Positions 19,352-50,010 of a stretch of DNA of 64,000 nt are shown here, in pieces. The position numbers and the translations under genes are program-made. This stretch comes from Ferrimicrobium sp. GTDB lineage: Bacteria > Actinomycetota > Acidimicrobiia > Acidimicrobiales > Acidimicrobiaceae. The stretch covers positions 5,550 through 69,549 of the forward strand of contig NZ_DAHXOI010000011.1 in the NCBI RefSeq assembly GCF_027364955.1. Reading direction: 5' to 3'. The notes beneath the pieces were generated by a model that saw only the letters and a program-made list of their open reading frames with translations, had not been told where the DNA came from and made no database searches. Numbering within the stretch: the first letter of the stretch is position 1; each line of letters begins with the position of its first letter.

Positions 19352-22300
19352 TTATCGCCCATCAGTACGGTATCCATACCCCCTGCCGCCCCTAGTGGAA
19401 TCCCCCTTTGACGAACCAGGCGATGATGGATAGGGAGAATCATGACGTGATGCCTTACGCTCTTCGTCGCGAGCCTTCTCCCTGGCCTCCACTTGCGCGA
19501 GCTTGGCGAGTAGCCTCGCACTGGGCGCGTAGGTCTCGCCAGGGACTATTTCGCGAGGCTTGGTGATGTCGACTATCTCGTTAATTCTTGCAGAGGTGAG
19601 GTGGTGCTCGACTGAGTTGCGGTACAGGTGGCTGATCACCCGCTCCCTTCGCGCATAGTCAACGGCCCAGGTACCGTCGTCGGCTTTGTAGAAGAATCCC
19701 TTAACCCAGTCACGTTTGACCCCTTGGGGAGCCGCCTTGGAGTCTGGCTGAACCGGGGATGACACCTCGTTCGCAGGTGCCACAACGTCAGTCTCGCTGT
19801 GTTCTTCGACAGATGGCCTTGGCCTTCTCGCTTTGCGCCACTGAATTTGGGGCATGGGCTCACACGCTGAATGATTAGTCGCAACAGTGGTGTCGGCACC
19901 GCTACTCGGACTTCCCGCAGGCGGCACCCACTCAACGGTATCCCATCCAATATCATCGATGTACTCATCCTCAGACGCTATGTTTGTGATGGGTAGCTCA
20001 TCGTCTCCAATGTCAATACCGTTCCAATCCTCGTCACCGTAGTAGTCATCACTCGCGTCATCGTCACTAAAGTCCGGCGCGATCTGATCCCACGACTTCG
20101 CCTCTGCTTCACGTTCTCTAATCTGTGCGACTGATTCGCTTACCCGATCAACCAGTGCGACAAGGGCTGGGTCAACATTGGCCTTGAGCGACTCCTCTCG
20201 TAGGGCCCTGAGCGTCAGCTGGTGGCCAACAGGGGTGGGGTTGAGCCGCCCAATAGCTATGGCCGCCATTGCTTCTCGGATGCGTCCTCGATCGCGATCG
20301 GTGATCTCAAGACGACGAAGGGCCGCCTCGATCGTGATACCCTCACGCATCATCTGGTCGTAGATGTTGTCCGCGATTACCATCCAGTCTGAGGCCACGC
20401 GGTAGCTCACGTTGCTAAAGAGCTTGGCCCTCTTGGCCTCCTCGCTGCCCTCTTCACTCTCGAAGACTTCACGCGCTGACATGTCAACGACCTCGCGCGA
20501 GGTGTTCTCGGGGAGAGGAACCTCTATCCTCTCGGGCGCATCGACCCACGCGCCCTGATCCTCAGCGATTGCGATGGCATCGTCGACGAGTGCAATACGA
20601 TCTCGGACATAGCGTGCATCAAGCACTACCTTGCCCTCGGAGTCACCGAGGGCACCCTTGGCATGTCCGATAAAGGCATCAAAGAATCCCATGCGAGTGA
20701 GTTCTCTGTCAAGGGAGGCTACTGCCACTGAAGTGTGATCGATCTCAGTACCAAGGTGGGTCTGCATCTCGGGATCATCGGTCCCACGGAGTCGTTCTTC
20801 GAGTTGGCTGAGGCGATCCATGAGGTGCTCGCGCTCCTCGTGAGCGGCCCGGGTGGAGGTATCAAATGATACCTCTAGTTCGCCACTTCGCAGGTGGTCA
20901 TTGAGCCAAACGTGTAGCTCGTTCAGCATCCCGATATCAGTCGTTACCGCGAGCGTGAGGGTCTCGCGCTCTCTTGCTAAGCGCAGATAGGCAGAGTCTG
21001 GTTCTTCTCCTCGGCTCTGGCGAGCAAGGTAGAGAGTGAGGGTAGCACGAGCAACCTCTGCCTTGTCGGCCTGGGCCAAGCGCTTCTCAGTACCCTGATC
21101 GTTCTCGGTGTCGAGTGCTGATCGGAAGATGAAGTTGGTGTGTTGTCGTGCTCGCGATGCTGCTACCAAGAGAGCATCTAGGTTCATACCCTCGGTCCCG
21201 ATGACTAGAGCGTTCCCATCGCGTGCCTCAACATTGACCCGCTTCATACGATCAGCCGTCTCTTGGCTGAGGGTAACTCGAGATCGCTCAACGGTAGCGA
21301 CCCTGCCATCTTCTAGTCGAACGGTGATCTTGTCGCCCTTGTCCTCTAAGAAGGTGGCCTCGACCCTGCGCAAGTGCTCTGGTCCGCGCTTTCGCATCCT
21401 TACCAGTACTGGCGTATCTGCGACGAGGGCACCTTGCGAGTCAGCCACTGCAAGAGAACCCCCGGACATGCCGAGCTCCATCGATTGGGTGCGAAACACG
21501 GTGGAGGCCCAACCATAGGAGAACATCCCTCGGTTGTTCTCCTCGTTGATGACCGATCTTGGAATGCGGACATGGCGGGCTGAGGATTCGTCCTCAATGT
21601 AGAGCACCACGCTCTTGTCGGTGATATCGACGATGCGGCCACGTTGACCGTTGAAGAGTCGAGTCGTCTTGGCGACCTTCACACTGCGCCGGATAGCGAC
21701 CAGATCACCCATTCGCAACTCCAATGTTGACCCCGCGAACTCAGCTCCGAGCACCGGGTTCTCATCGCGAGCACGGTGTAAGCGTTGCTCATAGAGCTCG
21801 TTTGAGATTCGGTGATGCTGCTTTTGGGTCTTTAGGTACCCCTGGACCCACGCGAGGCGGTACTCATCCCAGATCTCATGAGCCAAAGCGTTTGCCGCCA
21901 TCTCTTCTGACTTGGTGTTGGTGATAACGAAGGAGTCAGTACCCAGGCTGAACTCATTGCGCAACCAGGCACTGGCTGATTCCATAAGTGCGAGACCGTC
22001 GTCGGCGACCTCGATCCTTCCCATCTGGTCGTAGGTGCGAAGCGCCTCTCGAAGATCACCCATGCGCAGAGATGCCTGAGCAACACGATCACCCGCATTC
22101 GCTGCTCGTCTGGTCGTTACCAATCGCGTACCACCGAGCTTTGCATACAGGGTTGCAAACATTCCTCCATAGCGCACCGATCCAAGCTGGCGATCATCTC
22201 CGACCAGGATGAGCTTGGCTCCAGCATCTCGCACGATGTTGAGCACCTCACCTAGCTCAAGTGTGTCTACCTGAGAGGACTCATCCAAGATGATGCAGGT

Positions 22301-24091
22301 GTTGGCCGGGACCTTCAAGAACCCAGCGTTGACCTGCCAGACGAAGGACTCGATCGTCAAAGCCTTGGCTGTTGGATCAGTTATGTGCAAGGTATCTGCG
22401 AGCTTTTGCACAGCGGTCCCCTGGGGAGCAAGGCCCCAGACGGTGATGTCATTCGCCTGGGCGAGCTTGGTGAAGTGGCGAAACAGTGTGGTTTTACCCG
22501 CTCCTTGTGCCCCCATGAGGAGTGCTACTGTCGTGTCAGCACAAAAGAGGTGCCTTAATGCATCTTGTTGTTCCCCGGAGAGGAGATACTGCCCGGCCTC
22601 TCGTTGAGCCTTGAGGGTCTGGGCCAGGTAGTCATTCACCACATCAGGGCCAAGTATGCCAGCCATTGTGGGCTCGGATGCGATCTCTAGAACGGTCTTC
22701 TCGGAGTTCAGCACTCCAGATGTTGCGTAGTAGCGAATCGGCACCCGCTCTGGATTGACGCGCTTGTCTCTGACAAAGAGCGCGGGTACGAGTGGCACCA
22801 GACACAAGGTGGGATCGCGTCCCTCGCCAGTCACCAGCTTTGCTATGGTCTCTTTGAGCACATCACCATCGACGAACCCACCAACCAAGTTATAGACACT
22901 CGCGTGGATGTCCTGGACCGTGACATATGCCTTGGAGCTGAGCACACCCTCCTTGGGTCCAGACCCATAGAAGAGCACTCGAGCGAGATAGTCCACCAGC
23001 TCGTCTGCGTTCTCGACCAGGGGTATCGGCCCATAGAGCCCAAGATGGGTAGGGATACGTAACCACAGACCCGCTTGGTGCACATCGGGACGAGGATCTT
23101 CATAGACTCCGAGGATCTGATCCCACTCACTATCTCCTAAGTTCCACACGGACTTGAGTTGAGCATGTAACTCCTCTCGAACCTCGTCGATCTTGGCATC
23201 ACCTTGGCCAAAGTCCTTGGCCTTGCGGGTGCGTACCGCAACCGATCTGCGTGTCTTTGGTGAGATCGTGCCGGTAGGGGAGAGGTTCTCAAGACGCTCG
23301 CGTAACTCGGCCGCCTCCTTGTGGCGCATTGAGAAGGCCGGCAACAACTCCGCACCATCCCCACCTCGCCATTCGGCAAGCCCGGTGAGTTCTGCTCGCC
23401 ATCCATCGGAGTGGATACTCCATTCAGCGTTGGTGAGGTGACCCATGTGTTCTCGTAGGCTTGCCCGATAGATCGCGCCTGCGCTCATGTACCAGCGATA
23501 GAGCTCCTTATTGTGCAAAGACCGCCACTTGCCGTCCTCGCATCGCACGACATTGGGTACGAGAACATGGGTGTGTAGGTGGGGTTCGATATCGCGATTG
23601 GTGTAGTGGGTGAATCCCGCAAAGACCATCTCACCCGGTGCAATAGACACCTCGCCCTTGACCGTCAAGCGAGTTATCCCGGCCTTCTCCTGTAAGAATG
23701 CGATCGCATTGTTCACAGCCAAGCGGTGGGCGAGTGCTAGCGCATCTCGGGTGCGCTCGTCAGGATGGGCAAGGTAGGCCAGGGAGATCGACTTGGCTGC
23801 TGAGAAGGTGAGATCGTACCCGGGTGCGCGTGGCCGCTCAAGACTTGCCTGATGCTCTTCAATGTCGTTGATGCCGTAGGTGGCTCGTTGATCCGATGCA
23901 ATAGCGACGGCTGCTTTGGGTCCAATCGCACAGAGTGCATAGAGATCGTCGGCATTGACGGGCTGACCTTGGCTGAAGCCAAGCGCGTAAGCACCAAGAC
24001 CGTACCAGTAGCTACTGTTCAAAGACAGTGCAGCCATCCGGGCGTAGTAGTCACGGACTGCCTGTGCAGCGATGGGCGTGATGTTCAGCAT
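19352..24091 (-). CDS. traA: Conjugative relaxase/helicase, MobF (TrwC/TraI-like)
   Basis: 1579 residues from the ATG at 24091. The N-terminal ~300 residues form a TrwC relaxase domain: MLNITPIAAQAVRDYY with a candidate catalytic tyrosine pair, and EPHLHTHVLVPN, the metal-binding histidine cluster. Around residue 526 a RecD-like superfamily I helicase begins with Walker A LLMGAQGAGKTTLF, followed by ILDESSQVD and LVGDDRQLGSV. The C-terminal ~400 residues are acidic and low-complexity. The enzyme nicks the plasmid at oriT, becomes covalently attached and unwinds the strand for transfer. A longer reading to 24352 is open, but the product before MLNITP has no family similarity, and the element promoter motif ends just before this ATG. 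No type IV secretion genes are visible, so the element may be mobilisable only. Confidence 0.92.
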   Translation of the reverse strand: MLNITPIAAQAVRDYYARMAALSLNSSYWYGLGAYALGFSQGQPVNADDLYALCAIGPKAAVAIASDQRATYGINDIEEHQASLERPRAPGYDLTFSAAKSISLAYLAHPDERTRDALALAHRLAVNNAIAFLQEKAGITRLTVKGEVSIAPGEMVFAGFTHYTNRDIEPHLHTHVLVPNVVRCEDGKWRSLHNKELYRWYMSAGAIYRASLREHMGHLTNAEWSIHSDGWRAELTGLAEWRGGDGAELLPAFSMRHKEAAELRERLENLSPTGTISPKTRRSVAVRTRKAKDFGQGDAKIDEVREELHAQLKSVWNLGDSEWDQILGVYEDPRPDVHQAGLWLRIPTHLGLYGPIPLVENADELVDYLARVLFYGSGPKEGVLSSKAYVTVQDIHASVYNLVGGFVDGDVLKETIAKLVTGEGRDPTLCLVPLVPALFVRDKRVNPERVPIRYYATSGVLNSEKTVLEIASEPTMAGILGPDVVNDYLAQTLKAQREAGQYLLSGEQQDALRHLFCADTTVALLMGAQGAGKTTLFRHFTKLAQANDITVWGLAPQGTAVQKLADTLHITDPTAKALTIESFVWQVNAGFLKVPANTCIILDESSQVDTLELGEVLNIVRDAGAKLILVGDDRQLGSVRYGGMFATLYAKLGGTRLVTTRRAANAGDRVAQASLRMGDLREALRTYDQMGRIEVADDGLALMESASAWLRNEFSLGTDSFVITNTKSEEMAANALAHEIWDEYRLAWVQGYLKTQKQHHRISNELYEQRLHRARDENPVLGAEFAGSTLELRMGDLVAIRRSVKVAKTTRLFNGQRGRIVDITDKSVVLYIEDESSARHVRIPRSVINEENNRGMFSYGWASTVFRTQSMELGMSGGSLAVADSQGALVADTPVLVRMRKRGPEHLRRVEATFLEDKGDKITVRLEDGRVATVERSRVTLSQETADRMKRVNVEARDGNALVIGTEGMNLDALLVAASRARQHTNFIFRSALDTENDQGTEKRLAQADKAEVARATLTLYLARQSRGEEPDSAYLRLARERETLTLAVTTDIGMLNELHVWLNDHLRSGELEVSFDTSTRAAHEEREHLMDRLSQLEERLRGTDDPEMQTHLGTEIDHTSVAVASLDRELTRMGFFDAFIGHAKGALGDSEGKVVLDARYVRDRIALVDDAIAIAEDQGAWVDAPERIEVPLPENTSREVVDMSAREVFESEEGSEEAKRAKLFSNVSYRVASDWMVIADNIYDQMMREGITIEAALRRLEITDRDRGRIREAMAAIAIGRLNPTPVGHQLTLRALREESLKANVDPALVALVDRVSESVAQIREREAEAKSWDQIAPDFSDDDASDDYYGDEDWNGIDIGDDELPITNIASEDEYIDDIGWDTVEWVPPAGSPSSGADTTVATNHSACEPMPQIQWRKARRPRPSVEEHSETDVVAPANEVSSPVQPDSKAAPQGVKRDWVKGFFYKADDGTWAVDYARRERVISHLYRNSVEHHLTSARINEIVDITKPREIVPGETYAPSARLLAKLAQVEAREKARDEERKASRHDSPYPSSPGSSKGDSTRGGRGYGYRTDGR

Positions 24092-24095
24092 GCCT

Positions 24096-24108
24096 ATGGA
24101 TATGCACC
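24096..24108 (-). promoter_or_regulatory. Element promoter motif of the relaxase gene
   Basis: On the minus strand GTGCATATCC lies about 7 nt upstream of the relaxase ATG. It matches the GTGCATATAT motif that recurs upstream of other genes in this element. If it is a -10 region, the mRNA would have almost no leader. Confidence 0.5.
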
Positions 24109-24175
24109 GGCAAGGGCTGATTTGGGGAAGTTTTACCATCTTGTCCAAACATCGCTCTGACCAGCGGTTTTCAAG

Positions 24176-24201
24176 ACTGCTTAAGGTGTGGTCACCACGA
24201 A
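24176..24201. repeat. 26-bp direct repeat, copy 1 (candidate oriT or recombination site)
   Basis: The 26-bp sequence runs from ACTGCTTAAGG through GTGGTCACCAC to CGAA; the inner part is a palindrome with a one-base centre. It lies 85 bp upstream of the relaxase start, the normal place for oriT. An identical second copy is at 25556-25581. Confidence 0.75.
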
Positions 24202-24422
24202 TACATCCTCCGACCCCCCTTCTACGCGCTTCCAGAACCACCATCCAGCCACACCAACCCGAATCCGAACCCCACCCAATACCAGCCACCCATGAATCCA
24301 GACCCGCTCGCTCGCTGCCAAATGCCACCGACACGCCTATCACGACACGCAACCATGACAGGTACCGGCAGCAGGTGCCTTTGGGTCAAAAGGATGCAAT
24401 ACCTCGGAGAGGCATTGCTGAG

Positions 24423-32053: not shown

Positions 32054-32899
32054 TTAGTCGTTGGCCTTTGCATCATTGGCTTTTTCATCTGCCAACCGCT
32101 GGAGAAGCCCCGTAGGTCCCAAAAACTTCTCGCGCTTGGGAAGCGACTGCGATGGTTCGTCGAGGGCAATCATCGCTCCCTCCAACACCGTCGCTGCCAA
32201 CGCGGTTTTGACCCGATGCCAGGTGAGCAACAACGTCGCGCTAAGGATGGGATCAGACTGTGCCGCTATTTCGGAGATAGACAACGGGCTGCGATGAATC
32301 GCCTCAAGCGTAGATGCGGGAATCTTTCTGATTTCCATCGTTCTTGCTCCCATCCGTGCCATTGCATCTGCACGAATATCGTACCAGAACGGCTGACCGC
32401 GATAGGAACATTGAAAGAGCGGTCGAATGATCGTGAGATGTTTTAGCTCGACAGCAGAGAGCATCCCGCCATCCATGCTCGTAAACAAACCGTCGTCGTC
32501 TCCGATGTTCGTAACCCGATCTGCGTTGATCGCCAAAGACCAGGCGACTCGAGGTTCACGCCCCAACGTTGCCAACACCATGGGAAGCTCGTCGAAGATA
32601 CGTACTCCACTTGCAGGGGTATTGACAATCACGTACTGTGCGTCGAGTGATTCGACTGCCTTGCCCAGCAGTTCTATCCCTGACTCGTCCGTGAGACTCG
32701 ACAGATCGACGTTGGCTACACGAACCTCTGGGTGAGAGCCATACTTGGCCTCAAGTGACGGAGAACGCTCGTCGCCCTCCAAACAGGCAACCGTGGCCTC
32801 TCCCTCGAGTAGAGCCTCCACCATCAGGATCGCTAGTGTGGACTTGCCAACCCCACCCTTCGCGCCCGTTGAAAAGATCAGCTTCTTGTCGGTCTCCAT
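32054..32899 (-). CDS. ParA/MinD-type P-loop ATPase
   Basis: 281 residues from the second ATG at 32899, which is better spaced from GGAGGAG than the ATG at 32905. LIFSTGAKGGVGKSTLAIL is a deviant Walker A with the signature lysine, and YVIVNTPASG the Walker-B/switch region. The rest differs from classic ParA and is closer to plasmid-borne MobD/ParA-like proteins. The expected role is plasmid partition or positioning of transfer machinery; no obvious ParB lies next to it. An element promoter motif lies upstream at 32931-32944. Confidence 0.8.
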   Translation of the reverse strand: METDKKLIFSTGAKGGVGKSTLAILMVEALLEGEATVACLEGDERSPSLEAKYGSHPEVRVANVDLSSLTDESGIELLGKAVESLDAQYVIVNTPASGVRIFDELPMVLATLGREPRVAWSLAINADRVTNIGDDDGLFTSMDGGMLSAVELKHLTIIRPLFQCSYRGQPFWYDIRADAMARMGARTMEIRKIPASTLEAIHRSPLSISEIAAQSDPILSATLLLTWHRVKTALAATVLEGAMIALDEPSQSLPKREKFLGPTGLLQRLADEKANDAKAND

Positions 32900-32930
32900 A
32901 TCCATCTCCTCCGTTCAAGGTCGTTACCAA

Positions 32931-34558: not shown

Positions 34559-34764
34559 TCTGAGAGTCTAACGGCCTTACTCGGCGTGGAGGTAGCCCTA
34601 GATCTCCCTATCTGCTCCATACGCTCGTCGGCGAAGTCTCGTAGTCTATGGAGCGGTTGTACTTGTCGCGCTCGTGCCTCGCGACGAAGCCCGGTCTCAA
34701 TGCCTTCGCCGAGCGATGCCTCTATGCCATACAGTCAGCGTTGTGTCGTTGTGGTGAGAGGGCC

Positions 34765-36301: not shown

Positions 36302-36567
36302 TGTTTATCCTCTCGTTGTTGCTCGCACTTTGCCAGGCATGCCACAAGTTAGTGATGGGATCGCTGGAAACCAAGCCGAATCTTGCTCTCCTGGGGGCTG
36401 TCATTCACCGTTGATGGTGTTCGCCATCCCGTGTCAAGGCAGCGTCAGGTAACCACATGATCTTCACGCTGGTTTGATTCATGGCAATCACGAGGATGTA
36501 CCCCAGCACATAGCGTTAAAGGGGGACATGGACACCCAAGTTCTCTCGGACGGCCCACATCAGCACA

Positions 36568-37173
36568 CTAGCTCTTAACAGCGTGGAGTTTGACCACTCC
36601 TATCCACTCGTGCAACGCATCCACAGCATCGACCGACAGCCGGTCACGAGCAAAAGCACACACAGCACAAAGCTCGACCTCATCAGCATGATCTAGCACC
36701 CAGGCGTCACATGCCTCGATACAGCTCCTTCGCCACCTAGTCACGTCCGCGATTAGTACCAGCGCTGCATCGAACGGGTCCGTCTCCGACGCCGAGAAAC
36801 TCGCATGCCGTAGCCCGATATTCTCATCGTCGCTGATGGAGAAACCCAAAACGGTGTCGAAGATCCCGCCAATATCGGATTCGAACCATCCCCAGTCGGG
36901 ACTCAGCCATACGGTATCTGCGCTTATCGTCCAGCTCAGCTCATTTTCGATTGTGACGCGACTATTGAGCATCACGGTCAGAAAATCTAAGACTCGCCCA
37001 AGGTCTCGCTGTCCAATGATGTCGTCCATCAGCGGGTACTGTCGACAGAGCTCGCCAACGCGATAGTGCTCCCAAGCAGCTAGACACTCTGGTGAGCAGC
37101 AGCCACGCTCGTGATGCCATGCCTGTGTACCTATGCTGGTATCGATCTCTTTCCCACATTCGATGCAATGCAC
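36568..37173 (-). CDS. Hypothetical protein with N-terminal zinc-binding motif
   Basis: 201 residues from the GTG at 37173 (AAGGAGGTAAC upstream). MHCIECGKEIDTSIG and RGCCSPECLAAWEHY give two CxxC-like pairs, a zinc-ribbon arrangement, and the remainder is acidic and probably helical. No known domain beyond this. Confidence 0.6.
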   Translation of the reverse strand: MHCIECGKEIDTSIGTQAWHHERGCCSPECLAAWEHYRVGELCRQYPLMDDIIGQRDLGRVLDFLTVMLNSRVTIENELSWTISADTVWLSPDWGWFESDIGGIFDTVLGFSISDDENIGLRHASFSASETDPFDAALVLIADVTRWRRSCIEACDAWVLDHADEVELCAVCAFARDRLSVDAVDALHEWIGVVKLHAVKS

Positions 37174-39216: not shown

Positions 39217-40254
39217 AGCATGCAACTCACAAAGACCGGCCTTGAGAACATCATCGTCACCCAGGAGTACGCCGCACGCGGATGGGCAACCTACCCATTG
39301 GCGCCCGGATCGAAGAAGCCACTGAAGGGATCGCATGGATTCCATGATGCAACGACGGATCAATCCGCTCTCCTTGATGCGTTCTCTGATCCACCCGACC
39401 TCAACATCGGCATCCGCACCGGTGAGGCATCAGGTATCATCGTGATCGACATTGATGCCCACGAGGGAGCCGCGAATGGGTATGACTCAATGCGTGCTCT
39501 TGCGTCTCAAGGATTCCGATTCCCAACTGGCAACAGTCGCATAGGGTGTGCAATAGCCAAGACCCCAAGTGGAGGTCTACATCTCTACTATGCAGCCCCT
39601 CCTGAGGCAAAGATCAAGTCAACCACCGGTGTTCTGGCCCCTGGCCTAGATACTCGCGGCGAGGGTGGCTATATCGTTGCTCCGCCATCTGCGACCGACA
39701 AGGGTAGGTATGTATGGAAGCAGTGCCCAGACACGCTTCTCGAGTTACCCTGTTGGGTGATCGAACGGTGCAAAGTCACCCCCGTTCCAGAACGACCCAG
39801 GGTCGAGCCAACCGAGACGATTCCACCCACCGTTGCACAGATGCTCAGAGACCGCCTCGATCGCATCGCCCAAGCATCGAATGGTCAACGCAATGCGACC
39901 CTTAACCGCGAGGCATTCTATCTAGCTCAGTACGTGGGCATGGGTTTTGACCAACAGCAGTTGACCGAATGGCTCAGACACGCTGCCCTCAAGTCCGAGA
40001 TGCCAGAATACGAGGCGCAACGGACCATCCGAAGTGCGCTTGACCGTGCACCGATGTCTCGCGCGTCGGACCCACAACCCCAGGCTGCCAACCGTGATTC
40101 GCACTGTACAATACCAACCATAGCCAGCACGAACCAAACGATGCCCCTCATTCGACATGCGACAGAGCGAAGTTCACACACCCAGGCTTCGAAGTCCCCA
40201 GCAGACGGTGCCTCCGAGGAGGCCCATGGGGGATATCGGCATCGACTCTGCTAG
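39214..40254 (+). CDS. Bifunctional DNA primase/polymerase (prim-pol) domain protein
   Basis: 346 residues from ATG 39214 (or 344 from 39220). TYPLAPGSKKPLKGSHGF, NIGIRTGEASGIIVIDIDAHEG, AKTPSGGLHLYYAAP and LDTRGEGGYIVAPPS are the prim-pol (AEP) motifs; the DxD in VIDIDAH and the later His bind the metal. Such proteins start plasmid or phage replication. The C-terminal helicase domain normally fused or adjacent is missing, and the last ~20 residues look like run-on sequence, so the gene may be truncated at the boundary with the CRISPR-Cas locus. Confidence 0.88.
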   Translation: MSMQLTKTGLENIIVTQEYAARGWATYPLAPGSKKPLKGSHGFHDATTDQSALLDAFSDPPDLNIGIRTGEASGIIVIDIDAHEGAANGYDSMRALASQGFRFPTGNSRIGCAIAKTPSGGLHLYYAAPPEAKIKSTTGVLAPGLDTRGEGGYIVAPPSATDKGRYVWKQCPDTLLELPCWVIERCKVTPVPERPRVEPTETIPPTVAQMLRDRLDRIAQASNGQRNATLNREAFYLAQYVGMGFDQQQLTEWLRHAALKSEMPEYEAQRTIRSALDRAPMSRASDPQPQAANRDSHCTIPTIASTNQTMPLIRHATERSSHTQASKSPADGASEEAHGGYRHRLC

Positions 40255-40376
40255 ATGTCGAGCTAGTTTTGCGGGCCAGAAAACTAAAGAGGTTACCAAT
40301 CCCTGCCGAAGTCACCTGATGCCAGTGACCTCCTGCTTAACGGAAGCCGCAGGCAAAGGCGAAAGAAGCGATTGCA

Positions 40377-41267
40377 ATGCCAGGAGCTTGGAGGATAGTC
40401 GATCTAACCGGGTACGAGGGCAAGGTCTCGGCCGGCAAAGGGTCTTTGTATGTCGGAGATGCGACGGTACCACTGGCGGATCTTGCTGTTGTCCTCGTTG
40501 GACCACACTGTCTGCTGCACGAGAGCATTTTTGATCGAGCAGCTGCTTTCGACATAGCAATTATGCATTGTGATTGGCGCGCAGTGCCTATTGCCACGAC
40601 GTTAACCTGGTCCAATAATTCCCGAGTCGCGACACGCCAGCGATGTCAGATTACAATGTCTATCCCGCGTCAAAAGAATGCTTGGATGCGGATTGTTCAA
40701 GCAAAAATCCGTGGCCAAGCCAACGCCCTTGCGGTATGCGATCGGCCCCATGCAAGTGAGGTCCGTGATCTAGCGAAGCTGGTTCGTTCCGGCGATCCCT
40801 CCAACGTGGAAGCTCGCGCCGCGCGAGCCTATTGGAGTGCTTTGTTTGATCAACCTCGGTTCCGTCGCAAACCAGGGAGTAGGGTAGATGCCAATAGTTA
40901 TTTGGACTATACCTATGCGATTGTGCGGGGATTTTGTGTACGTGCCGTTGTGGCTGCCGGTCTAAATCCGACCCTCGGAGTGTGGCATCATCAACGGTCC
41001 AACAACTTCTCCCTCGTAGATGATATTATCGAACCCTTCCGACCTGCTGCCGATGTGGTTGCCATGCAGGCATATGGAAGCTATGATTCAATGACCCCTG
41101 ACTGCAAACGGCAACTTGCGAGTGTATGTGATAGAAAATTCGCATCGGATGGCCGGACGACAGGTTCAAGCATCACCCACTTTACACAGAGTCTTGCTAA
41201 TTACATGGAAGGGGAAGGCACGACTGTGCAGGTACCGGTGTTTGAGGGATCCCGTGAAGACGGATGA
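40377..41267 (+). CDS. cas1: CRISPR-associated endonuclease Cas1, type II
   Basis: 296 residues. The Cas1 metal site is visible as the Glu in NVEARAARAYW, the His in LGVWHHQRSNNFSL and the Glu in DDIIEPFRP. The protein cuts and integrates spacers together with Cas2. No cas4 or csn2 is present, so the system is type II-C. It starts at the ATG 122 bp after the primase stop with only a weak ribosome binding site. Its 3' end overlaps cas2 by 14 nt. Confidence 0.95.
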   Translation: MPGAWRIVDLTGYEGKVSAGKGSLYVGDATVPLADLAVVLVGPHCLLHESIFDRAAAFDIAIMHCDWRAVPIATTLTWSNNSRVATRQRCQITMSIPRQKNAWMRIVQAKIRGQANALAVCDRPHASEVRDLAKLVRSGDPSNVEARAARAYWSALFDQPRFRRKPGSRVDANSYLDYTYAIVRGFCVRAVVAAGLNPTLGVWHHQRSNNFSLVDDIIEPFRPAADVVAMQAYGSYDSMTPDCKRQLASVCDRKFASDGRTTGSSITHFTQSLANYMEGEGTTVQVPVFEGSREDG

Positions 41268-41577
41268 ACCCGTGTGGGCTGTCGTCTTTTTTGATCTTCC
41301 AGTTGACACAAAGGCGCATCGCCGTGATGCTACCCGTTATCGAGTTCAGTTGTTGGAGCTCGGTTTCGGCAGGATACAGCTGAGCGTCTACGCAAAGTAC
41401 CTTATCAATTCCTCCGGACTTGATTGGCTGTCCTCTCGTATTGCACTGGGAATCCCTGACGGTGGATTCGTAAGAATGCTTCACGTCAGCGATATTGAGT
41501 GGTCCAAGATGGTGCGGATAGAGGGAAGGAAGCTGATCGAAAGCGAATCTCGGCCACAGCAGCTGACCATCTTCTAG
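41254..41577 (+). CDS. cas2: CRISPR-associated protein Cas2
   Basis: 107 residues from the GTG at 41254 (VKTDEPVWAVVFFDLPVDT); a longer open frame upstream is the alternate frame of cas1. FFDLPVDTKAHRRDATRYR holds the conserved Asp of the ferredoxin-like fold, and FGRIQLSVYAKY matches the family. Cas2 is the structural partner of Cas1 in the integration complex. Its TAG stop (41575-41577) lies inside the first repeat of the array, so gene and array are fused end to end. Confidence 0.95.
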   Translation: MKTDEPVWAVVFFDLPVDTKAHRRDATRYRVQLLELGFGRIQLSVYAKYLINSSGLDWLSSRIALGIPDGGFVRMLHVSDIEWSKMVRIEGRKLIESESRPQQLTIF

Positions 41578-43401
41578 GGAAGTGCATAGACTCCCCCCGG
41601 CTAAACTGGACTACGAACGTGGGGTAGTGCTGTACCTGCTGGGAAGTGCATAGACTCCCCCCGGCTAAACTGGTGAACAGGTGCGCCATGTGAGCGATGG
41701 CGCTGGGAAGTGCATAGACTCCCCCCGGCTAAACTGGGCAAGACCAAGGCGAACCGCAGTGAGTGGCTGGGAAGTGCATAGACTCCCCCCGGCTAAACTG
41801 GCAGGTTCCCGTCCAGCTTTGAGAATCCAGCTGGGAAGTGCATAGACTCCCCCCGGCTAAACTGGCACCCAAACCTCCACCGTCCAGCCCTATGCTGGGA
41901 AGTGCATAGACTCCCCCCGGCTAAACTGGCAAGCTCGGCACCAAGCTCATACGTGAGGCTGGGAAGTGCATAGACTCCCCCCGGCTAAACTGGGACAGTG
42001 GGTTTGGTGGTTGAAGCCCCAGCTGGGAAGTGCATAGACTCCCCCCGGCTAAACTGGTGGATCGGCCGGCAGGACATACGTACAAGCTGGGAAGTGCATA
42101 GACTCCCCCCGGCTAAACTGGAACCCCCAAACAGTGCCGTCCTTATCCTGCTGGGAAGTGCATAGACTCCCCCCGGCTAAACTGGACTATTGATCGGGAT
42201 CGGCGCGGTGACGGCTGGGAAGTGCATAGACTCCCCCCGGCTAAACTGGGGCTGTTCCGGCCACGTCAATGATCGTTGCTGGGAAGTGCATAGACTCCCC
42301 CCGGCTAAACTGGTGGCCACTCTCAAGCTCTGCAAGCCTATGCTGGGAAGTGCATAGACTCCCCCCGGCTAAACTGGTTGTTGAAGTCCCTGGCGAGGTT
42401 GACATGCTGGGAAGTGCATAGACTCCCCCCGGCTAAACTGGGACGTGATGGGGTTGAGACCGTGCTCGCGCTGGGAAGTGCATAGACTCCCCCCGGCTAA
42501 ACTGGTTATCGACAAGATGGAGCGACCAGCCTAGCTGGGAAGTGCATAGACTCCCCCCGGCTAAACTGGAAGAAGCCACGCAGCCAACGAGAGCCGAGCT
42601 GGGAAGTGCATAGACTCCCCCCGGCTAAACTGGGCAAGCCTCGGCAAGGGCTCATCAGTGGGCTGGGAAGTGCATAGACTCCCCCCGGCTAAACTGGCAT
42701 CCCGATCCCGACCGGAGTGTACGTCGCTGGGAAGTGCATAGACTCCCCCCGGCTAAACTGGTTTCACTCACGGTGTGGGACCTCCTCCGGCTGGGAAGTG
42801 CATAGACTCCCCCCGGCTAAACTGGACTCACACGCTGAACAAGAGCGCCCGACGCTGGGAAGTGCATAGACTCCCCCCGGCTAAACTGGAGGGAACTTGC
42901 ACCCCGCTGGCTTAGAGGCTGGGAAGTGCATAGACTCCCCCCGGCTAAACTGGCCACTCTCCTGCGTGCCTTGATCGGATCGCTGGGAAGTGCATAGACT
43001 CCCCCCGGCTAAACTGGATGTTCGGGTGGTCGTGCTCGGGAACTAGCTGGGAAGTGCATAGACTCCCCCCGGCTAAACTGGAGATGCTCCACGTCGAGCG
43101 CGTCGTCCTGCTGGGAAGTGCATAGACTCCCCCCGGCTAAACTGGTCCAAGGAGAGCGGCGACAAATACGAGTGCTGGGAAGTGCATAGACTCCCCCCGG
43201 CTAAACTGGACGCTTTAGTCTTTCCGCGAATCTTGTCGCTGGGAAGTGCATAGACTCCCCCCGGCTAAACTGGCGTGGCCGTCGCCCCAACCGGAGCCTT
43301 CGCTGGGAAGTGCATAGACTCCCCCCGGCTAAACTGGTACCATGCGAGCGTACTTGAACATCGTCGCTGGGAAGTGCATAGACTCCCCCCGGCTAAACTG
43401 G
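41574..43401 (+). CRISPR. CRISPR array, 29 repeats of 36 bp, 28 spacers of 28 bp
   Basis: Repeats begin every 64 bp from 41574 to 43366 without a single deviation, each 36 bp long: GCTGGGAAGTGCATAGACT at the 5' end, a run of C, and CCGGCTAAACTGG at the 3' end. All spacers are 28 nt. Repeat 1 differs at its first three bases (CTA instead of GCT) because it contains the cas2 stop codon; all others look identical. The 5' half pairs with an anti-repeat at 47069-47091, so crRNAs are read from the + strand. The array is bounded by cas2 on the left and a terminator hairpin on the right. Spacers are unmatched here; I did not find protospacers by eye. Confidence 0.99.
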
Positions 43402-43411
43402 ACGAGACGGA

Positions 43412-43441
43412 AGGGAACCCTGGTGGGAGCCAGGGTTCCCT
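43412..43441 (+). terminator. Terminator hairpin after the CRISPR array
   Basis: A perfect 12-bp stem (AGGGAACCCTGG at 43412-43423 with CCAGGGTTCCCT at 43430-43441) and a 6-nt loop, followed by GTTGTTTG. It should end transcription of the array before it runs into the convergent cas9 gene, whose stop is at 43480. Confidence 0.8.
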
Positions 43442-43479
43442 GTTGTTTGCGTGTCGAAAAATGGTTCACACGCATTCCA

Positions 43480-46400
43480 TTAGTCTGTTGTGAGGCCATT
43501 TTTGCCATCGTCTAATAGTCTGATGGCTTCTTTAGATGGACTCCAACTCGTGGGTAGCGTATCAGAATGCCACCTGGGTCGTCCTAGTGTGGTGCGCCGG
43601 ATGACCTGAAGAGTGGCGACTGCGCACACGTCGTTTACCACTGGCCGCCAACCCTTGCCCTTTATAACTTTGTGTATTATTGGATCCGGTTTGCCCAACA
43701 ATCCTTCGGCAGCGAGATAGAGTGGTCGCAGGGTTAGGTTGGTAGCTGAGTCGTAGCCCGCAATCCTCCAACGTGTCTCGGGATAGTGGGTAAAGAACTC
43801 ATGTGATTCTTTTCCCGGCATAGTCGCGATAGATCCAAAGTCCAGTTCGTCACCATCCGTTAGCCACCCGATGTACTGGGCTCCCTCTGAGGCTATTGCC
43901 GCCAATACTCTGTTATCAGCAAGTCGCCACGACTCCGACCACGATGGCAGCTCGGCTCGGAATAAATTTACCCCCTTTTTGCGGAACCCTATTCGGCCGA
44001 ATTCTCCGCCAAAGACTCGGATCATTCCATAGCTAATGTTGCCCTTCCTATCACGCCAAGCGTATACGCGAGCATGGTGTATCGTGCCTAGGTTGAACCC
44101 ACTGGTTCCAATGCGAAGCATCCCACCGCCTCCGTCAAAGAGCGTAATCTTGTCGCTGCCCCCGAGCGAAACCCCATGCTCATCGACTGCAAATCGGTTT
44201 GGATCTTCGGGGATCGCCCTTTCGTCATCCAGTTCCATGAATAACGCCTGGTACACGCGTCTGTCGGTTATACGCTGAATCTCCTGGGAGCTGAAGGTAT
44301 CCCCTAGCTGCTTCGTGAGTAATGATCGTCCGGTATCGTCATGCATTCGTCCGATTTGAGGCCGGAGACGCAGAGGATAGATGACTGGCAACCCATCTTC
44401 ATCGATGAGGGTCTTGGTAAGATCGCTTAGGATCTCCATCGTGCCTAACCACTGGCGAAAGAGTGTTTGATCTGCAAAGCTCTCTCCATAGAACTCTCTA
44501 GAGTTGTCGGAGAGCTCACCAAGTCGAGAGGCCTTGTAGAGATCATCACGTTCGACAAGCACCTTCGCCACCGATTGGCGCATTGAGGTCAGCACAATCG
44601 CGTCGAGAGCATGATGACGACGGTCCAGTCGCGTTTTCTTGGATTCGCCACGCAACATGATCTTCTGGTTAAACTGGCCTTGAATACGCGCTAGGGATGT
44701 TATGTTCCCGCTAAAAACCCGGACTCTCTGGTGTTGATCATTGGGGTCGTAGCCAGGTTGGCTCTCCAAGAACTGCTCGACCCGCTCTCGCACCGCCACT
44801 GCGGCGTATGAAGTGGGTGCCAAGCTTCTTTCATCGAGTGGGTCGTCGTTGGAGGTGCGCTTCAGCCTAGTGATCACGTCTTTCTTGTAGTTCGCGAATT
44901 CCTTGTTGATTTGCCTCTGTTGTTTGCCTTTGTCAAGCGCACCCACCTGTCGATCCCAGTTATTCACTCGTTCGATCGCAGCACCCAAACTAACTTCAGG
45001 GCGTGATGCCATTTTCGCCCATTGGCCAAAGGGTTGTTTGCCCTTCTCGGCGTTGCATCGGCGGCATACCGCTGCCAGGTTAGAGACCCGGTTTGACCCG
45101 CCTGTTGCACGAGGGACGATGTGGTCAATCTCGGTGTTGTCCCATCCGATTGACGTTCCGCAGTACAAACATTGGGAGCCCTGTCGCTCGATGAAGGTGT
45201 ACTTGGCTATGTCTCTACGGGATGGGTTAGAAACTCCCTGGCTTTGGAGATGGACACGGATATGGTCATTGAAGATCCTGCGCTTGTCTTGCTCGTTCTT
45301 CAGCTCCCTCAACGCCACATCACCAAGGGATGCCTCTCGTGCAAGTTCTATGACGACCTTGCTTGGCGCTCCCCACTTGGCGGTCGCTGCGCTAAGAAAC
45401 CGGCCCACGATCTTGAGATTCCGGTCTACAGTCGGTTGGCCGGTTGGCACGGCGAATGAGTCCTTAGACGGCTTCCAGTATTCATCCACGACATTGCCCT
45501 GGTGATCAAAAGGGTACGCCCGCTGCCTTGCCGTGTAGAGATCGCAGGATTGTTCGCGCATGATCTCATTCATTCGTGACAATGATCTCAACCCATAGGC
45601 CGCACGCCCACTCGGCAACTTGAGATCATCTAAGTTGGCGAGTTCCTTATCCGAAAGCCCTTCGCGCAGGTTCTCCAGCATTTCATTGTCGTAATTACCC
45701 GTACTGTCGCTGAGGCCAAGTACAAGATCTCCTCGCATATCCGAATCGGCGCTAGCCCACCACTGGGCCAGTGCCGGGATTTGTGAGTGTTCGATCGTGA
45801 CCGAAGTGGTGTCTATCGGAGCACGAGTGCCGCTGGTCTCACTCAGACGTATCTCAAAGTGTTCCTCCACATTCTGCCAGCTAGGCGCGTTTTCGTCTCG
45901 CCAGCTGAGCAGATACTGTACGATGTCTTCCGAAATCCCTGGTGTGAGTGGCTCCTTCGCCTCGCGGGTCCGAAGATTGGCTATCGTAGTTCTAATGCGA
46001 AACTCCTGAAATGTTAGGCTAGCCATTGGAGCACGGAGTGTGCCGTCGAGGTCATCCCTGCCAATGCGGTCCGAGCGAACCGTCGGGGCTTCTTGTTTGA
46101 ATAGCGCTTCACTGACTTGGTCGAAGAAGTCATCATCCAATTGTTGTACTTGAGCAATGAGTTGTAGTTCGTTATAGATATCCTCCTGTCGGATTTGCTC
46201 GAACAATATCTTGTCCTCTTTGGGTGCGCTCTTAGCATCCTTCCCCTCCCGCCTCTTTCGCTTGGCCGAGATCTGCCGTGGGCGAAACCAAAGATCGGAA
46301 TCTAGTGTCAAGAGCGTCGCAGCTAGCTCGCCAATAGTACGCGTATTTTCCACATCTACGCCAAGACGCTCGGCAGCCTTGGTTCTCATCTTCTTCAAGT

Positions 46401-46896
46401 TGGCGCTAGGGCCTTGGTCTGCCAAGTTTGCGAGTTGGTTGAGCTTCGACCAGGGGTTCCGCCATCCTCGATAGCGTCCCATGTGCATGATTGCCAGTGC
46501 CAACAATCGGCTTCGTTCATCATCATTGTCAATCTTGTTCTGAGTTAACGCTGCCCTCGCTAGCCATGGTGCATGAAGGTCAACACTATCCAAATTGGGT
46601 GCCACACACCCAAAACTACTTAGTACCCGTTCGAGCTCGAGGAGACGTGCTCGACGTCGCCTTCTGAGCCGTCGCGTTCTGCGCGCTGTCCCCGCTCTGG
46701 CTTTGCGGCTTTCATTAACTTGGCCGTCAGGGTCAGCTCCACCGTCATGGATGTATGACACTGCTGCGAGGATTGTAGGTACTTCCTCTTCCGACGGGTA
46801 TTCAACAGCAGCCAACCCAACGGAGTGTTCGCCCACGTCGATCCCCAAAGTCCAGTTGAGCGTGTTGGCACCATTGCTCTCCACGTTGTCGCGCAT
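43480..46896 (-). CDS. cas9: Cas9 endonuclease, type II-C
   Basis: 1138 residues from the ATG at 46896 (AAGGAG four bases upstream). A frame open to 47016 would overlap the tracrRNA and is rejected. RuvC-I: LGIDVGEHSVG with Asp20. Arginine-rich bridge helix: GTARRTRRLRRRRRARLLEL (about 64-83). RuvC-II: VVIELAREAS with Glu517. HNH: CLYCG, EIDHIVPRATGG with His592 and CRRCN; the two CxxC pairs suggest a zinc-bound HNH. RuvC-III: RRHHALDAIV with His761/His762 and Asp765. All catalytic residues are present. The length equals that remembered for Acidothermus cellulolyticus Cas9, and the repeat is similar too, so the PAM may be related, which only experiment can show. It converges on the array. Confidence 0.98.
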   Translation of the reverse strand: MRDNVESNGANTLNWTLGIDVGEHSVGLAAVEYPSEEEVPTILAAVSYIHDGGADPDGQVNESRKARAGTARRTRRLRRRRRARLLELERVLSSFGCVAPNLDSVDLHAPWLARAALTQNKIDNDDERSRLLALAIMHMGRYRGWRNPWSKLNQLANLADQGPSANLKKMRTKAAERLGVDVENTRTIGELAATLLTLDSDLWFRPRQISAKRKRREGKDAKSAPKEDKILFEQIRQEDIYNELQLIAQVQQLDDDFFDQVSEALFKQEAPTVRSDRIGRDDLDGTLRAPMASLTFQEFRIRTTIANLRTREAKEPLTPGISEDIVQYLLSWRDENAPSWQNVEEHFEIRLSETSGTRAPIDTTSVTIEHSQIPALAQWWASADSDMRGDLVLGLSDSTGNYDNEMLENLREGLSDKELANLDDLKLPSGRAAYGLRSLSRMNEIMREQSCDLYTARQRAYPFDHQGNVVDEYWKPSKDSFAVPTGQPTVDRNLKIVGRFLSAATAKWGAPSKVVIELAREASLGDVALRELKNEQDKRRIFNDHIRVHLQSQGVSNPSRRDIAKYTFIERQGSQCLYCGTSIGWDNTEIDHIVPRATGGSNRVSNLAAVCRRCNAEKGKQPFGQWAKMASRPEVSLGAAIERVNNWDRQVGALDKGKQQRQINKEFANYKKDVITRLKRTSNDDPLDERSLAPTSYAAVAVRERVEQFLESQPGYDPNDQHQRVRVFSGNITSLARIQGQFNQKIMLRGESKKTRLDRRHHALDAIVLTSMRQSVAKVLVERDDLYKASRLGELSDNSREFYGESFADQTLFRQWLGTMEILSDLTKTLIDEDGLPVIYPLRLRPQIGRMHDDTGRSLLTKQLGDTFSSQEIQRITDRRVYQALFMELDDERAIPEDPNRFAVDEHGVSLGGSDKITLFDGGGGMLRIGTSGFNLGTIHHARVYAWRDRKGNISYGMIRVFGGEFGRIGFRKKGVNLFRAELPSWSESWRLADNRVLAAIASEGAQYIGWLTDGDELDFGSIATMPGKESHEFFTHYPETRWRIAGYDSATNLTLRPLYLAAEGLLGKPDPIIHKVIKGKGWRPVVNDVCAVATLQVIRRTTLGRPRWHSDTLPTSWSPSKEAIRLLDDGKNGLTTD

Positions 46897-46987
46897 GCGT
46901 CTCCTTAGTATCCCTGTAGGGGAAAGATTACAAAAGCCCCTGATGCTAGTATGGCCGCAAACTCGGACACTGGACAAGCAAGGCGCC

Positions 46988-47100
46988 AAAAAAACGATTC
47001 CCCTCCGGACTTTCATCCAGAAGGGGAATTAGAAATCAATTTCATACCGGCAAACCAGTACGAAACTTGCTGAGAGCATTGCATAGACTCCTGGATGACA
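46988..47100 (-). ncRNA. tracrRNA: tracrRNA (anti-repeat plus terminator)
   Basis: The + strand at 47069-47091 reads GCTGAGAGCAT then TGCATAGACTCC, matching the repeat's GCTG and TGCATAGACTCC with a mismatched bulge in between. Transcribed from the minus strand, it can pair with the crRNA repeat in the usual stem-bulge-stem shape. Downstream, ATTCCCCT (minus strand, from 47030) pairs with AGGGGAAT ending at 46997 and is followed by seven T (46994-46988), a Rho-independent terminator that also forms the 3' hairpin. The 5' end is uncertain: a TATAAT box near 47145 or a TATGCTAGAT box nearer the anti-repeat could drive it. It is followed by the cas9 promoter region on the same strand. Confidence 0.85.
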
Positions 47101-47648
47101 ATCTAGCATACGTGGGTGCTTGGTCGGCCGCAGGTTTGCATGTAATTATACTCGTTCCCCTGACTGTAGAACCGAAGTACAACAAGCCCGCTGGTCCGGA
47201 CAGCTTCGGCACACCAGATGGAGTCGCCAACACCTCTGACAGAAACCGAATCAAACACGACGTAACGGACCTATGGGAAGAACACGTTCCACTAGAGCGA
47301 TGGCCAGAACCACCGCACCAGATCTTCGCCCAAACGTGTTTGGCCAAAGTGCAGGTCCTACGACTGGTAAGGAGCATGTGGCCGGTGCACTACGCTAGCG
47401 TGCTTGCCTCTGTGGGTGGGCGACGCGGTATGGCCTCAAGCACGAAGCCCTGATTACGAATTACTGGCCGAGTACCCATTTGTATTTCGGACGTGAGATG
47501 GGCAAGCGAAACTACGCGACCAGCAGAACGCGATACGGGGACTTCACCCGTAAACAACTCGCCGTCAGCATGCACAACAATCCTTACGTCGATGCAGATG
47601 GAAGGTCCCTCGAGGACGGAGCCTGTTCCGCCACTCGCAACTCATCAG
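47101..47648. other. About 550 bp without a clear gene
   Basis: Contains the likely tracrRNA promoter. The + strand frame 47067-47453 is open for 128 codons (VPLTVEPKYNKPAGPDSFG) but starts inside the anti-repeat and matches no family. No other structure seen. Confidence 0.35.
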
Positions 47649-48056
47649 TCACAAGTGGCGTCCCCTCATTGCAACGTTCACGGAGTTCGCCCCTAGGTTC
47701 TCATCACCCTCACTTCTCCGTCCAGTCAGTGCAACTTGGGCCAACCTGGCAAATGCCGCAGTGACATCATCGACACTCGGAGTCTCACCCCATATCATGG
47801 TCTGGCAGAATTGCTCGTACCGAATTCGCGTGTCATCATCGCAAACGTGACCAAGCTCGCCGTGGAGGACTTCATAGGGAGAATCAGCAAAGACCTCGAA
47901 CTGGCGACCATAGGTTTCAACATCGCGCTCAATAGTAAGGGCGACCAGGTCACTAAGCTGCCCCCCCAAACTCAATCGCATCAAAGCCAGGTGAACTTGG
48001 CAGCTTTGCATGCACATAGTGGGTGTCGCACTTGTGGCGCACCAAGCGGTCGTCAT
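47649..48056 (-). CDS. Hypothetical protein, start uncertain
   Basis: Up to 135 residues; the convincing part begins around MRLSLGGQLSDLVALTIERD (ATG at 47981) and runs through ETYGRQFEVFADSPYEVLHG and DDDTRIRYEQFCQTMIWGE. Helix-rich, no family recognised. A run of seven C bases near 47960 sits at the beginning of the good region and could be a site of frameshift. Confidence 0.4.
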   Translation of the reverse strand: MTTAWCATSATPTMCMQSCQVHLALMRLSLGGQLSDLVALTIERDVETYGRQFEVFADSPYEVLHGELGHVCDDDTRIRYEQFCQTMIWGETPSVDDVTAAFARLAQVALTGRRSEGDENLGANSVNVAMRGRHL

Positions 48057-48123
48057 AGTCTCCTCGAGTAAGACCGCTTCGTCCCTGAGAGGCGCGGAGT
48101 AGATCTGAGTTCACGCGTAATGA

Positions 48124-49164
48124 TTACAAGTGTCGTCCGAATCCATGTCCAAAACCACCGATCGTCTGTTGAGGTTGTTCAGGTTGTGAGAGTGTAGCGG
48201 CTGCTTCCAAGAAATCTGTGGCCACCATACGGAATGTTTGGGAGACCTCATCAAACAATGGTTTTGACCCGTACACGAGGTCATCGACAAAGACGGCATA
48301 GTTTTCATGGGCCTCTATATCGGTTGCGAGAAGGTCGAGCTCATCTCGCAAAACACTCACAGGACGCTCCTTGAAAACAGGAAACCTTTCACCGCCGTAT
48401 TGTTGTGTTTCTAGGGCGAGCGTCTCGGCGAAGATAGGAGCGGCCTCACCGATTACAGAGGGATTCGCCTCAACTATGCGGTGCACATCGTAAAGGTGCC
48501 TTACGAGTCGCGGATCATACCGATAGGTCAGTTCTGGATTCGCCTTGTGTTCAGCCGTGCGGCGAAGATACGAAATTACCTTGTCGGATACGATATCAGG
48601 CAAAGACACCATTGGGATCGCGTGTTCTTTAGACTGATCTCCCAGCTCATGCCTTTCCAGAATGTTTTGTACCGCTCGATTCTCAATGCCGAATGGCCGA
48701 TCTACCCCCATCAGTTCCACCTTGACGAACGGGCGTAGTGCAGTTTGTCTTGGTGTAAATGCTGAATCATAGACCACCGAGGCTCGGATGTAGCGGTTAC
48801 TATCCCTGCCGATAATCTCACCGTCAATCTCGAAGCCTGCGCCGCGTAGAGCATGGCCAAGCTCCGCCTTCAGTCTTGACAGCGCCTTGGATTTGGAGTT
48901 CTTGGATGGAAAATTTGGCGCGACAACACGGAAGTCCACATCTTCGGATATCCGCTCAATTAAACCCCAGCCCTGCGACAATGAAGTTCCGCCGGAAAAT
49001 ACAAGCTCGAAGCCGGAATCCCTGCCAACTTTTGCAACTTCAAGGACCACTTCTTTGACGATGACTTCTTTCTCAAGTATCAACGGCAGAAGAGCCTGTA
49101 AAGCGCCGGATTGGCCGCGCAGGACTTTTATGCCGGCGAGCTGTTGTTGGCTAAGACTTCTCAT
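48124..49164 (-). CDS. AbiEii-type nucleotidyltransferase toxin
   Basis: 346 residues from the ATG at 49164 with GGAGGAG upstream. FELVFSGGTSLSQGWGLIERISEDVDFRV is the AbiEii core: GG-T-S-L motif and the (D/E)-x-D metal pair, followed by RPFVKVELMG. AbiEii toxins transfer GTP or other nucleotides and are neutralised by AbiEi. The 14-nt overlap with the upstream antitoxin gene is typical. AbiE systems give abortive phage resistance and also stabilise plasmids, both plausible next to a CRISPR-Cas locus. Confidence 0.85.
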   Translation of the reverse strand: MRSLSQQQLAGIKVLRGQSGALQALLPLILEKEVIVKEVVLEVAKVGRDSGFELVFSGGTSLSQGWGLIERISEDVDFRVVAPNFPSKNSKSKALSRLKAELGHALRGAGFEIDGEIIGRDSNRYIRASVVYDSAFTPRQTALRPFVKVELMGVDRPFGIENRAVQNILERHELGDQSKEHAIPMVSLPDIVSDKVISYLRRTAEHKANPELTYRYDPRLVRHLYDVHRIVEANPSVIGEAAPIFAETLALETQQYGGERFPVFKERPVSVLRDELDLLATDIEAHENYAVFVDDLVYGSKPLFDEVSQTFRMVATDFLEAAATLSQPEQPQQTIGGFGHGFGRHL

Positions 49165-49618
49165 ATTTGACTCCTCCATTGAAGAGCTTGCGCCGGATAC
49201 GGCTTTTCCCCACATCAATAATTGCGTAGGGAGGTACCTGGGTGGATCGGCCTTCGTTGTACTCTCGAACCAGCAAACCCGGACGTGGGTCCACATCCAT
49301 CTTTATTAAGAAATCCTCCGCCACAGAAGAGTTGTCAAACTTCTGGATCTTATACCCAGCGTAAGGCCCATCGGCAAAGGCCCTGGACGGCGTGTAGACT
49401 CCATAGCCTACGCGGTACAAAGTCTCGTCCTCCATTAGTTTGCGAAGCGCACGGGCAACCGTGGATCGGCTTCCGAACCGCACAAACTCACTGGTGAGGA
49501 ATGCGGCATCTGATGATGAAGCTATGTACTCGCGTATTCTCTCTTCTACCGTAGCCAATGCTCTCACCTCATCCCGTGTGAAGATCGTTCCAACAAGTTC
49601 AATTATAGTAGCCCACAT
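49151..49618 (-). CDS. AbiEi-type antitoxin/regulator (DUF6088-like)
   Basis: 155 residues. The N-terminal part (LATVEERIREYIASSS, FGSRSTVARALRKLMEDETLYRVGYGVY) is the winged-helix domain of AbiEi-type antitoxins, which represses the operon promoter; the C-terminal part binds or inhibits the toxin's effect. A TATAAT (ACTATAAT) occurs just inside the 5' end and a CATATAGTACATG element precedes the ATG, so the true start may be internal and the message leaderless. Confidence 0.75.
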   Translation of the reverse strand: MWATIIELVGTIFTRDEVRALATVEERIREYIASSSDAAFLTSEFVRFGSRSTVARALRKLMEDETLYRVGYGVYTPSRAFADGPYAGYKIQKFDNSSVAEDFLIKMDVDPRPGLLVREYNEGRSTQVPPYAIIDVGKSRIRRKLFNGGVKYEKS

Positions 49619-49621
49619 GTA

Positions 49622-49780
49622 CTATATGTGCTGTTCACCGGTATGGGAGCGCAAGAAGGTAGCCTCACTTGGACGATCGTTCAGATACTTCTCAATCGCG
49701 GGTCTGATTTTCGAGGTGTACATATCTCCCTTATAGGTAGGTTGGTGAACTCGGCACATGTGTGCAGCCGAATTCATCAT
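49622..49780 (-). CDS. Small hypothetical protein downstream of the WhiB gene
   Basis: 52 residues from the ATG at 49780, 12 nt after the WhiB stop, with AGGTGGGAG at good distance. KIRPAIEKYLNDRPSEATFL looks like a real helical protein. Not recognised. Confidence 0.45.
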   Translation of the reverse strand: MMNSAAHMCRVHQPTYKGDMYTSKIRPAIEKYLNDRPSEATFLRSHTGEQHI

Positions 49781-49791
49781 GCTGCTCCCAC

Positions 49792-50010
49792 CTACAGAGT
49801 CTTTAAGAGCTGCTGGCGAGCACTCGGAAAAGAATGTCCGCCCCAAATCCCGTGCGTGGTGGGATTGGCCAGCGCCTCGTCGAGACATAGCGCTCTGGCT
49901 GCACAATCGGTACAAATCTCTTGTGCTAGATGAGCGTTCTCAGACTCGAACCACCATTTGGTAGGTAGTCCTACACAGACTGCCTGTTGTCGCCAGGCGT
50001 TGTCCTTCAC
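49792..50010 (-). CDS. WhiB-family iron-sulfur regulator
   Basis: 72 residues from the GTG at 50010 (AAGGAGGG upstream). Four cysteines in the WhiB pattern (AVC, ICTDCAARALC) bind a [4Fe-4S] cluster, and GIWGG is the family's conserved turn before the basic C-terminus. WhiB proteins work with the primary sigma factor and sense redox or NO. A copy inside a mobile element could control element genes. The start overlaps the stop of the preceding small gene. Confidence 0.9.
   Translation of the reverse strand: MKDNAWRQQAVCVGLPTKWWFESENAHLAQEICTDCAARALCLDEALANPTTHGIWGGHSFPSARQQLLKTL

Follow-up and report, generated by a model that had tools for sequence, protein, structure and literature searches.

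How does an actinobacterium come to carry a complete CRISPR-Cas9 system among the genes of a mobile element, and against what does the system act? The question arises in a Ferrimicrobium sp., whose 3.08-Mb draft genome is in 84 contigs; we analysed one stretch of 64,000 nucleotides as a whole, here called the window (G000:C11:5550-69549; Table 1). An earlier note on its sequence had placed a type II-C system, complete with cas1, cas2, a 29-repeat array, an 1138-aa Cas9 and a tracrRNA, at 40377-47100 between a primase and an AbiE pair on a relaxase-bearing element. The protein families, the array and the tracrRNA were all confirmed, as were the neighbors, with Prim-Pol, AbiEi/AbiEii and MobF families found on the contig. 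Open reading frames and families between 38 and 50 kb give cas9, cas1 and cas2 without csn2 or cas4, which fits type II-C; Rfam gave no match. With very high confidence in its basic identity, the locus is a complete and apparently intact type II-C CRISPR-Cas9 system, ordinary in kind. What is new lies in the orientation of its leader and array, in the discordance of Cas1-Cas2 with Cas9, and in the viral match of spacer 5.

Table 1. Features of the CRISPR-Cas locus and of its host element (positions in the window).
Feature	Position	Strand	Remarks
MobF (TrwC) relaxase	19352..24352	-	same contig
ParA-like partition ATPase	32054..32905	-	backbone; 99.6% aa identity to G001:C13
Prim-Pol primase	39220..40254	+	left slot border; homology to G006:C132 stops at 40256
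cas1	40377..41267	+	296 aa, type II/NMENI; TIGR03639 cas1_NMENI 201 bits; PADLOC Cas1_II 258 bits
cas2	41254..41577	+	107 aa; PADLOC Cas2_II 100 bits; TAG stop inside repeat 1
CRISPR array	41574..43401	+	29 x 36-nt repeats, 28 x 28-nt spacers
Spacer 5	41866..41893	+	convincing viral protospacer; 25/28, flank GAACC, mismatches silent
Leader-end hairpin	43402..43441	+	13-bp stem, weak T-tail; adjoins last repeat
cas9	43480..46896	-	1138 aa, AceCas9-like II-C; TIGR01865 219 bits, with Cas9-specific and HNH Pfam domains
tracrRNA	46985..47100 (approx.)	-	anti-repeat, stem, terminator
Right slot border	47201..47533		homology to G003:C51 resumes (63%)
AbiEii/AbiEi pair	48124..49637	-	88% identical DNA in G003:C51, there without adjoining CRISPR

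The Cas9 protein has Cas9_a, RuvC_III, HNH, b_hairpin, Topo and Cas9_C domains in a II-C type arrangement, and its RuvC residues D20, E517, H762 and D765 and HNH residues H592 and N615 are invariant in a three-way alignment, so that all catalytic residues are present, as had been claimed. The tracrRNA folds with a z score of -4.2 and closes with a terminal hairpin and a T-run. Among proteins of solved structure, the nearest is AceCas9 (8d2k, 640 bits over 1110 residues), the II-C enzyme of Acidothermus cellulolyticus (PDB 8d2k, 6wbr; PAM NNNCC), which has exactly the same length; no Cas9 closer than 43 to 44% identity was found in IMG/VR, GTDB contigs or the family genomes. AceCas9 contacts its PAM through E1044, R1088 and R1091 (PMC7733487). 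These align with D1049, K1081 and R1084 here, one residue being identical and two conservatively changed (E1044 to D, R1088 to K); a C-rich, NNNCC-like PAM is therefore expected, by homology and from the one protospacer flank, GAACC, that matching of the spacers provided and that fits NNNCC. The earlier suggestion of a compact Cas9 with its own PAM is accordingly weakened, since the protein belongs with AceCas9 and neither its size nor such a PAM is new; a compact Cas9 is the normal case in II-C.

The repeat, GCTGGGAAGTGCATAGACTCCCCCCGGCTAAACTGG, is identical in all 29 copies save repeat 1, which starts with CTA instead of GCT and is otherwise the same, and every one of the 28 spacers is exactly 28 nt long. 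The array starts on the stop codon of cas2, with no gap between the two. The 5' half of the plus-strand repeat forms a duplex of -36 kcal/mol with an anti-repeat on the minus strand (~47100-47070), indicating that crRNAs are read on the plus strand, in the direction that leads from cas2 to cas9. In II-C arrays of Campylobacter and other bacteria, new spacers enter via the last repeat, and the first ("extra") repeat accumulates changes (PMC12080349). The present array resembles them, with its altered repeat next to cas2 and its leader hairpin (stem-loop at 43412-43441), after the last repeat, next to cas9; it differs in having no upstream intergenic region, as repeat 1 overlaps the cas2 stop. 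Each repeat may have its own -10 element: TAAACT lies at the repeat 3' end, and a simple scan for promoter-like sites gave one in the array, not a systematic pattern.

A second question is how this layout arose. In type II-C systems, the array commonly lies beyond cas2 with the crRNA strand pointing towards cas2, an arrangement that is usual but does not define the subtype. We compared II-C loci of the same family (G028, G030, G034 and G023), all with the gene order cas9-cas1-cas2; a more distant locus, G485, was left out of the orientation comparison. The cas9 gene of G034:C11 (L004 / L035) contains an in-frame TGA, with cas1 and cas2 intact. In G028, G030 and G023, the repeat starts with GCTGGGAAGT and ends in GCTA(A/G)ACT, as here, and a hairpin likewise lies next to the crRNA-3' repeat, the hairpin sequences being unrelated. 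In these three loci the crRNA strand points to cas2 and the leader lies between array and cas2, and a crRNA strand towards cas2 is also found in G055, G031, G574 and G544, judged from repeat ends only. Here, in contrast, the leader adjoins cas9, and the array runs away from cas2 in the same direction as cas1-cas2. The leader-array block has thus kept its orientation to cas9, with cas1-cas2 lying inverted at its distal end.

The proteins also differ in their affinities. Cas1 shares 60% identity and Cas2 78% with its counterpart in G023, against 45 to 49% for G028, G030 and G034 (over all four loci, 47 to 60% for Cas1 and 45 to 78% for Cas2); Cas9 is 41% identical to that of G023 and 43 to 44% to those of the other three. 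In phylogenetic trees, Cas1 and Cas2 pair with G023 (support 86/94 and 97/97), and Cas9 falls outside a group of G023 and G028 (88/91). This suggests, with moderate confidence given moderate support and few taxa, that the adaptation module cas1-cas2 was exchanged between lineages. A further-reaching reading, which we offer tentatively and consider doubtful, is that the system was assembled from two lineages, one giving cas1-cas2 and the other Cas9, tracrRNA and the leader-array block, and that fusion of the array to the cas2 stop placed cas1-cas2 and the crRNAs on a shared transcript with the leader facing cas9.

The earlier note had also taken the system to be carried by a mobile element, a claim that would be contradicted if the chromosomes of relatives had the locus in one conserved position. 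No such conservation was seen in congeners: neither Cas1 nor Cas9 was found in any of the six other genomes of the genus, an absence that is not absolute because these genomes are drafts. A 12-kb chromosomal control matched all six nearly end to end (68 to 92%), whereas the window matched them in patches only (its 20- to 36-kb part was compared with fetched loci only). In G006:C132, the primase DNA match ends and is followed by a 264-aa ORF, this cargo beside the primase being flanked by 400-bp direct repeats (80%; L041:1466-4151); in G003:C51, the AbiE pair adjoins a 318-aa homolog of the same ORF. Homologs of both flanks thus occur without CRISPR, indicating that the CRISPR block occupies a variable slot. 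We conclude with high confidence that the locus is accessory, exchangeable cargo that a plasmid-like element carries between its primase and its AbiE module.

The contig carries genes for a relaxase, for partition and for replication (MobF, ParA and Prim-Pol), and on it neither a tyrosine integrase nor a TrwB-type coupling protein was found; the 86,281-bp contig has no terminal overlap and is open. The element is likely a plasmid, which we hold with moderate confidence and not as proven for a contig that is not closed. Of the claimed mobility, the accessory, relaxase-bearing nature stands. Accessory carriage on a relaxase-bearing element is shared with plasmid-borne CRISPR-Cas systems in general, among which class 2 is poorly represented (PMC9071438).

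Several other features of the genome and window were observed. The RecT/ORF/ParA backbone occurs a second time, on G000:C58 (L048) at 79 to 92% DNA identity, and two related elements may coexist in this genome. A GATase and flavin-reductase segment at 33198-36568 represents a separate cargo insertion, as G001:C13 lacks it between the corresponding backbone genes. The AbiE pair is nested in the remnants of an older AbiE operon (47649-49915), with an AbiEii C-terminal piece at 47649-48056 and an AbiEi N-terminal piece at 49622-49915, a mark left by replacement through recombination. A PsyrT-like RecQ-family helicase (59997-62093; PADLOC, 628 bits) stands beside an ORF for an EAL-domain protein (59157-59894) that is no evident PsyrA, and a 1358-aa ORF (12537-16613) has no match in Pfam, NCBIfam or PADLOC.

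What, then, does the array remember? Searches of the array against 72,556 plasmids and phage records (blastn, E up to 10) gave chance matches only, as did searches of the spacers against 42 family genomes and the fetched related elements, and exact 20-mers of spacers 25 to 28 were absent from IMG/VR. Among 397 genomes of the order, four non-self matches were obtained, and spacer 5 alone stands out, with a protospacer at G388:C136:12575-12602 (L093), against a chance expectation of ~0.2 matches with at most three mismatches and ~0.02 with NNNCC. None of the three mismatches alters the protein encoded by a 421-aa ORF, which reads TQTSTVQPY in both (chance 0.018). Matches of spacers 13, 15, 18, 23 and 24 were ruled out by mismatches, flank or non-silent changes, and self-targeting was rejected (best own-genome match 22/28, flank CTAGT). 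The remaining 27 of the 28 spacers have no convincing protospacer.

The matching contig, L093 (G388:C136:1-18428), is 18,428 bp long and belongs to a genome of the same order. Its packaging ATPase, of tectivirus type, has relatives in Rhodococcus phage Toil and in the Streptomyces phages WheeHeim and Forthebois, its family B DNA polymerase falls just below the PF03175 cut-off with motifs recognizable in the sequence, and it encodes an endolysin and WhiB. The order polymerase, ATPase, endolysin is shared with WheeHeim, and inverted terminal repeats of ~410 bp contain internal tandem repeats. L093 is a tectivirus-like linear virus, with no relatives in IMG/VR by three protein probes. The target of spacer 5 is viral with high confidence, and the spacer most likely derives from a relative of the L093 virus.

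These results bear on what the system is for. Had the element used it mainly against rival plasmids, as the earlier note proposed, it would agree with the general bias of plasmid-borne arrays to plasmid targets (PMC9071438) and with the family of related elements in the genus, one of them in the same genome; but for no spacer do matches to the plasmids, the fetched related elements, the genome itself or the family genomes exceed chance, and the sole convincing target is viral, unlike that bias. Competition between plasmids is hence unsupported, and we regard this use as improbable. An inactive or relic system is more improbable still: the 27 unmatched spacers would agree with it, but all ORFs and catalytic residues are intact, the repeats are identical and the tracrRNA is whole, in contrast to G034 with its stop in cas9.

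A rather unlikely alternative, the strongest of the three, concerns the carrier: the locus could sit in an integrated chromosomal island, with the relaxase and ParA genes as relics. An open contig that carries metabolic genes and has neither a coupling protein nor an integrase is in keeping with this, yet the missing integrase also argues against an integrative element. Moreover, the searched window contains no conserved chromosomal DNA, in contrast to the chromosomal control, and the backbone genes are met again on small mosaic contigs of congeners and on G000:C58.

The reading that we prefer, and consider probable, is an antiviral II-C system of AceCas9-type working that hitchhikes as exchangeable cargo on a plasmid-like element. 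Cas1-Cas2 would insert 28-nt spacers at the leader end, facing cas9, in a locus rebuilt so that cas1-cas2, of a lineage other than that of Cas9, stands inverted at the distal end of the array. The crRNAs would be transcribed on the plus strand, and since the array follows cas2 without a gap, transcription of cas1-cas2 could run into it; each crRNA would pair with tracrRNA transcribed from the region upstream of cas9, and Cas9 would cut DNA beside an NNNCC-like PAM. With at least one memory of a tectivirus-like phage, the main role would be antiviral defense of the cell and its element.

For this organism, the locus represents an intact II-C system from an acid habitat, borne by an accessory element, with a concrete PAM prediction, NNNCC-like, and with the reading of inter-plasmid competition removed for now. 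It is a case in which array inversion in type II-C and the swapping of its adaptation module can be put to the test. If the two-lineage reading is true, II-C adaptation modules would be exchangeable between Cas9 lineages only ~41% identical, and spacer acquisition would be coupled to crRNA output. The match of spacer 5 provides a lead that ties the CRISPR memory of an actinobacterium to a tectivirus-like phage.
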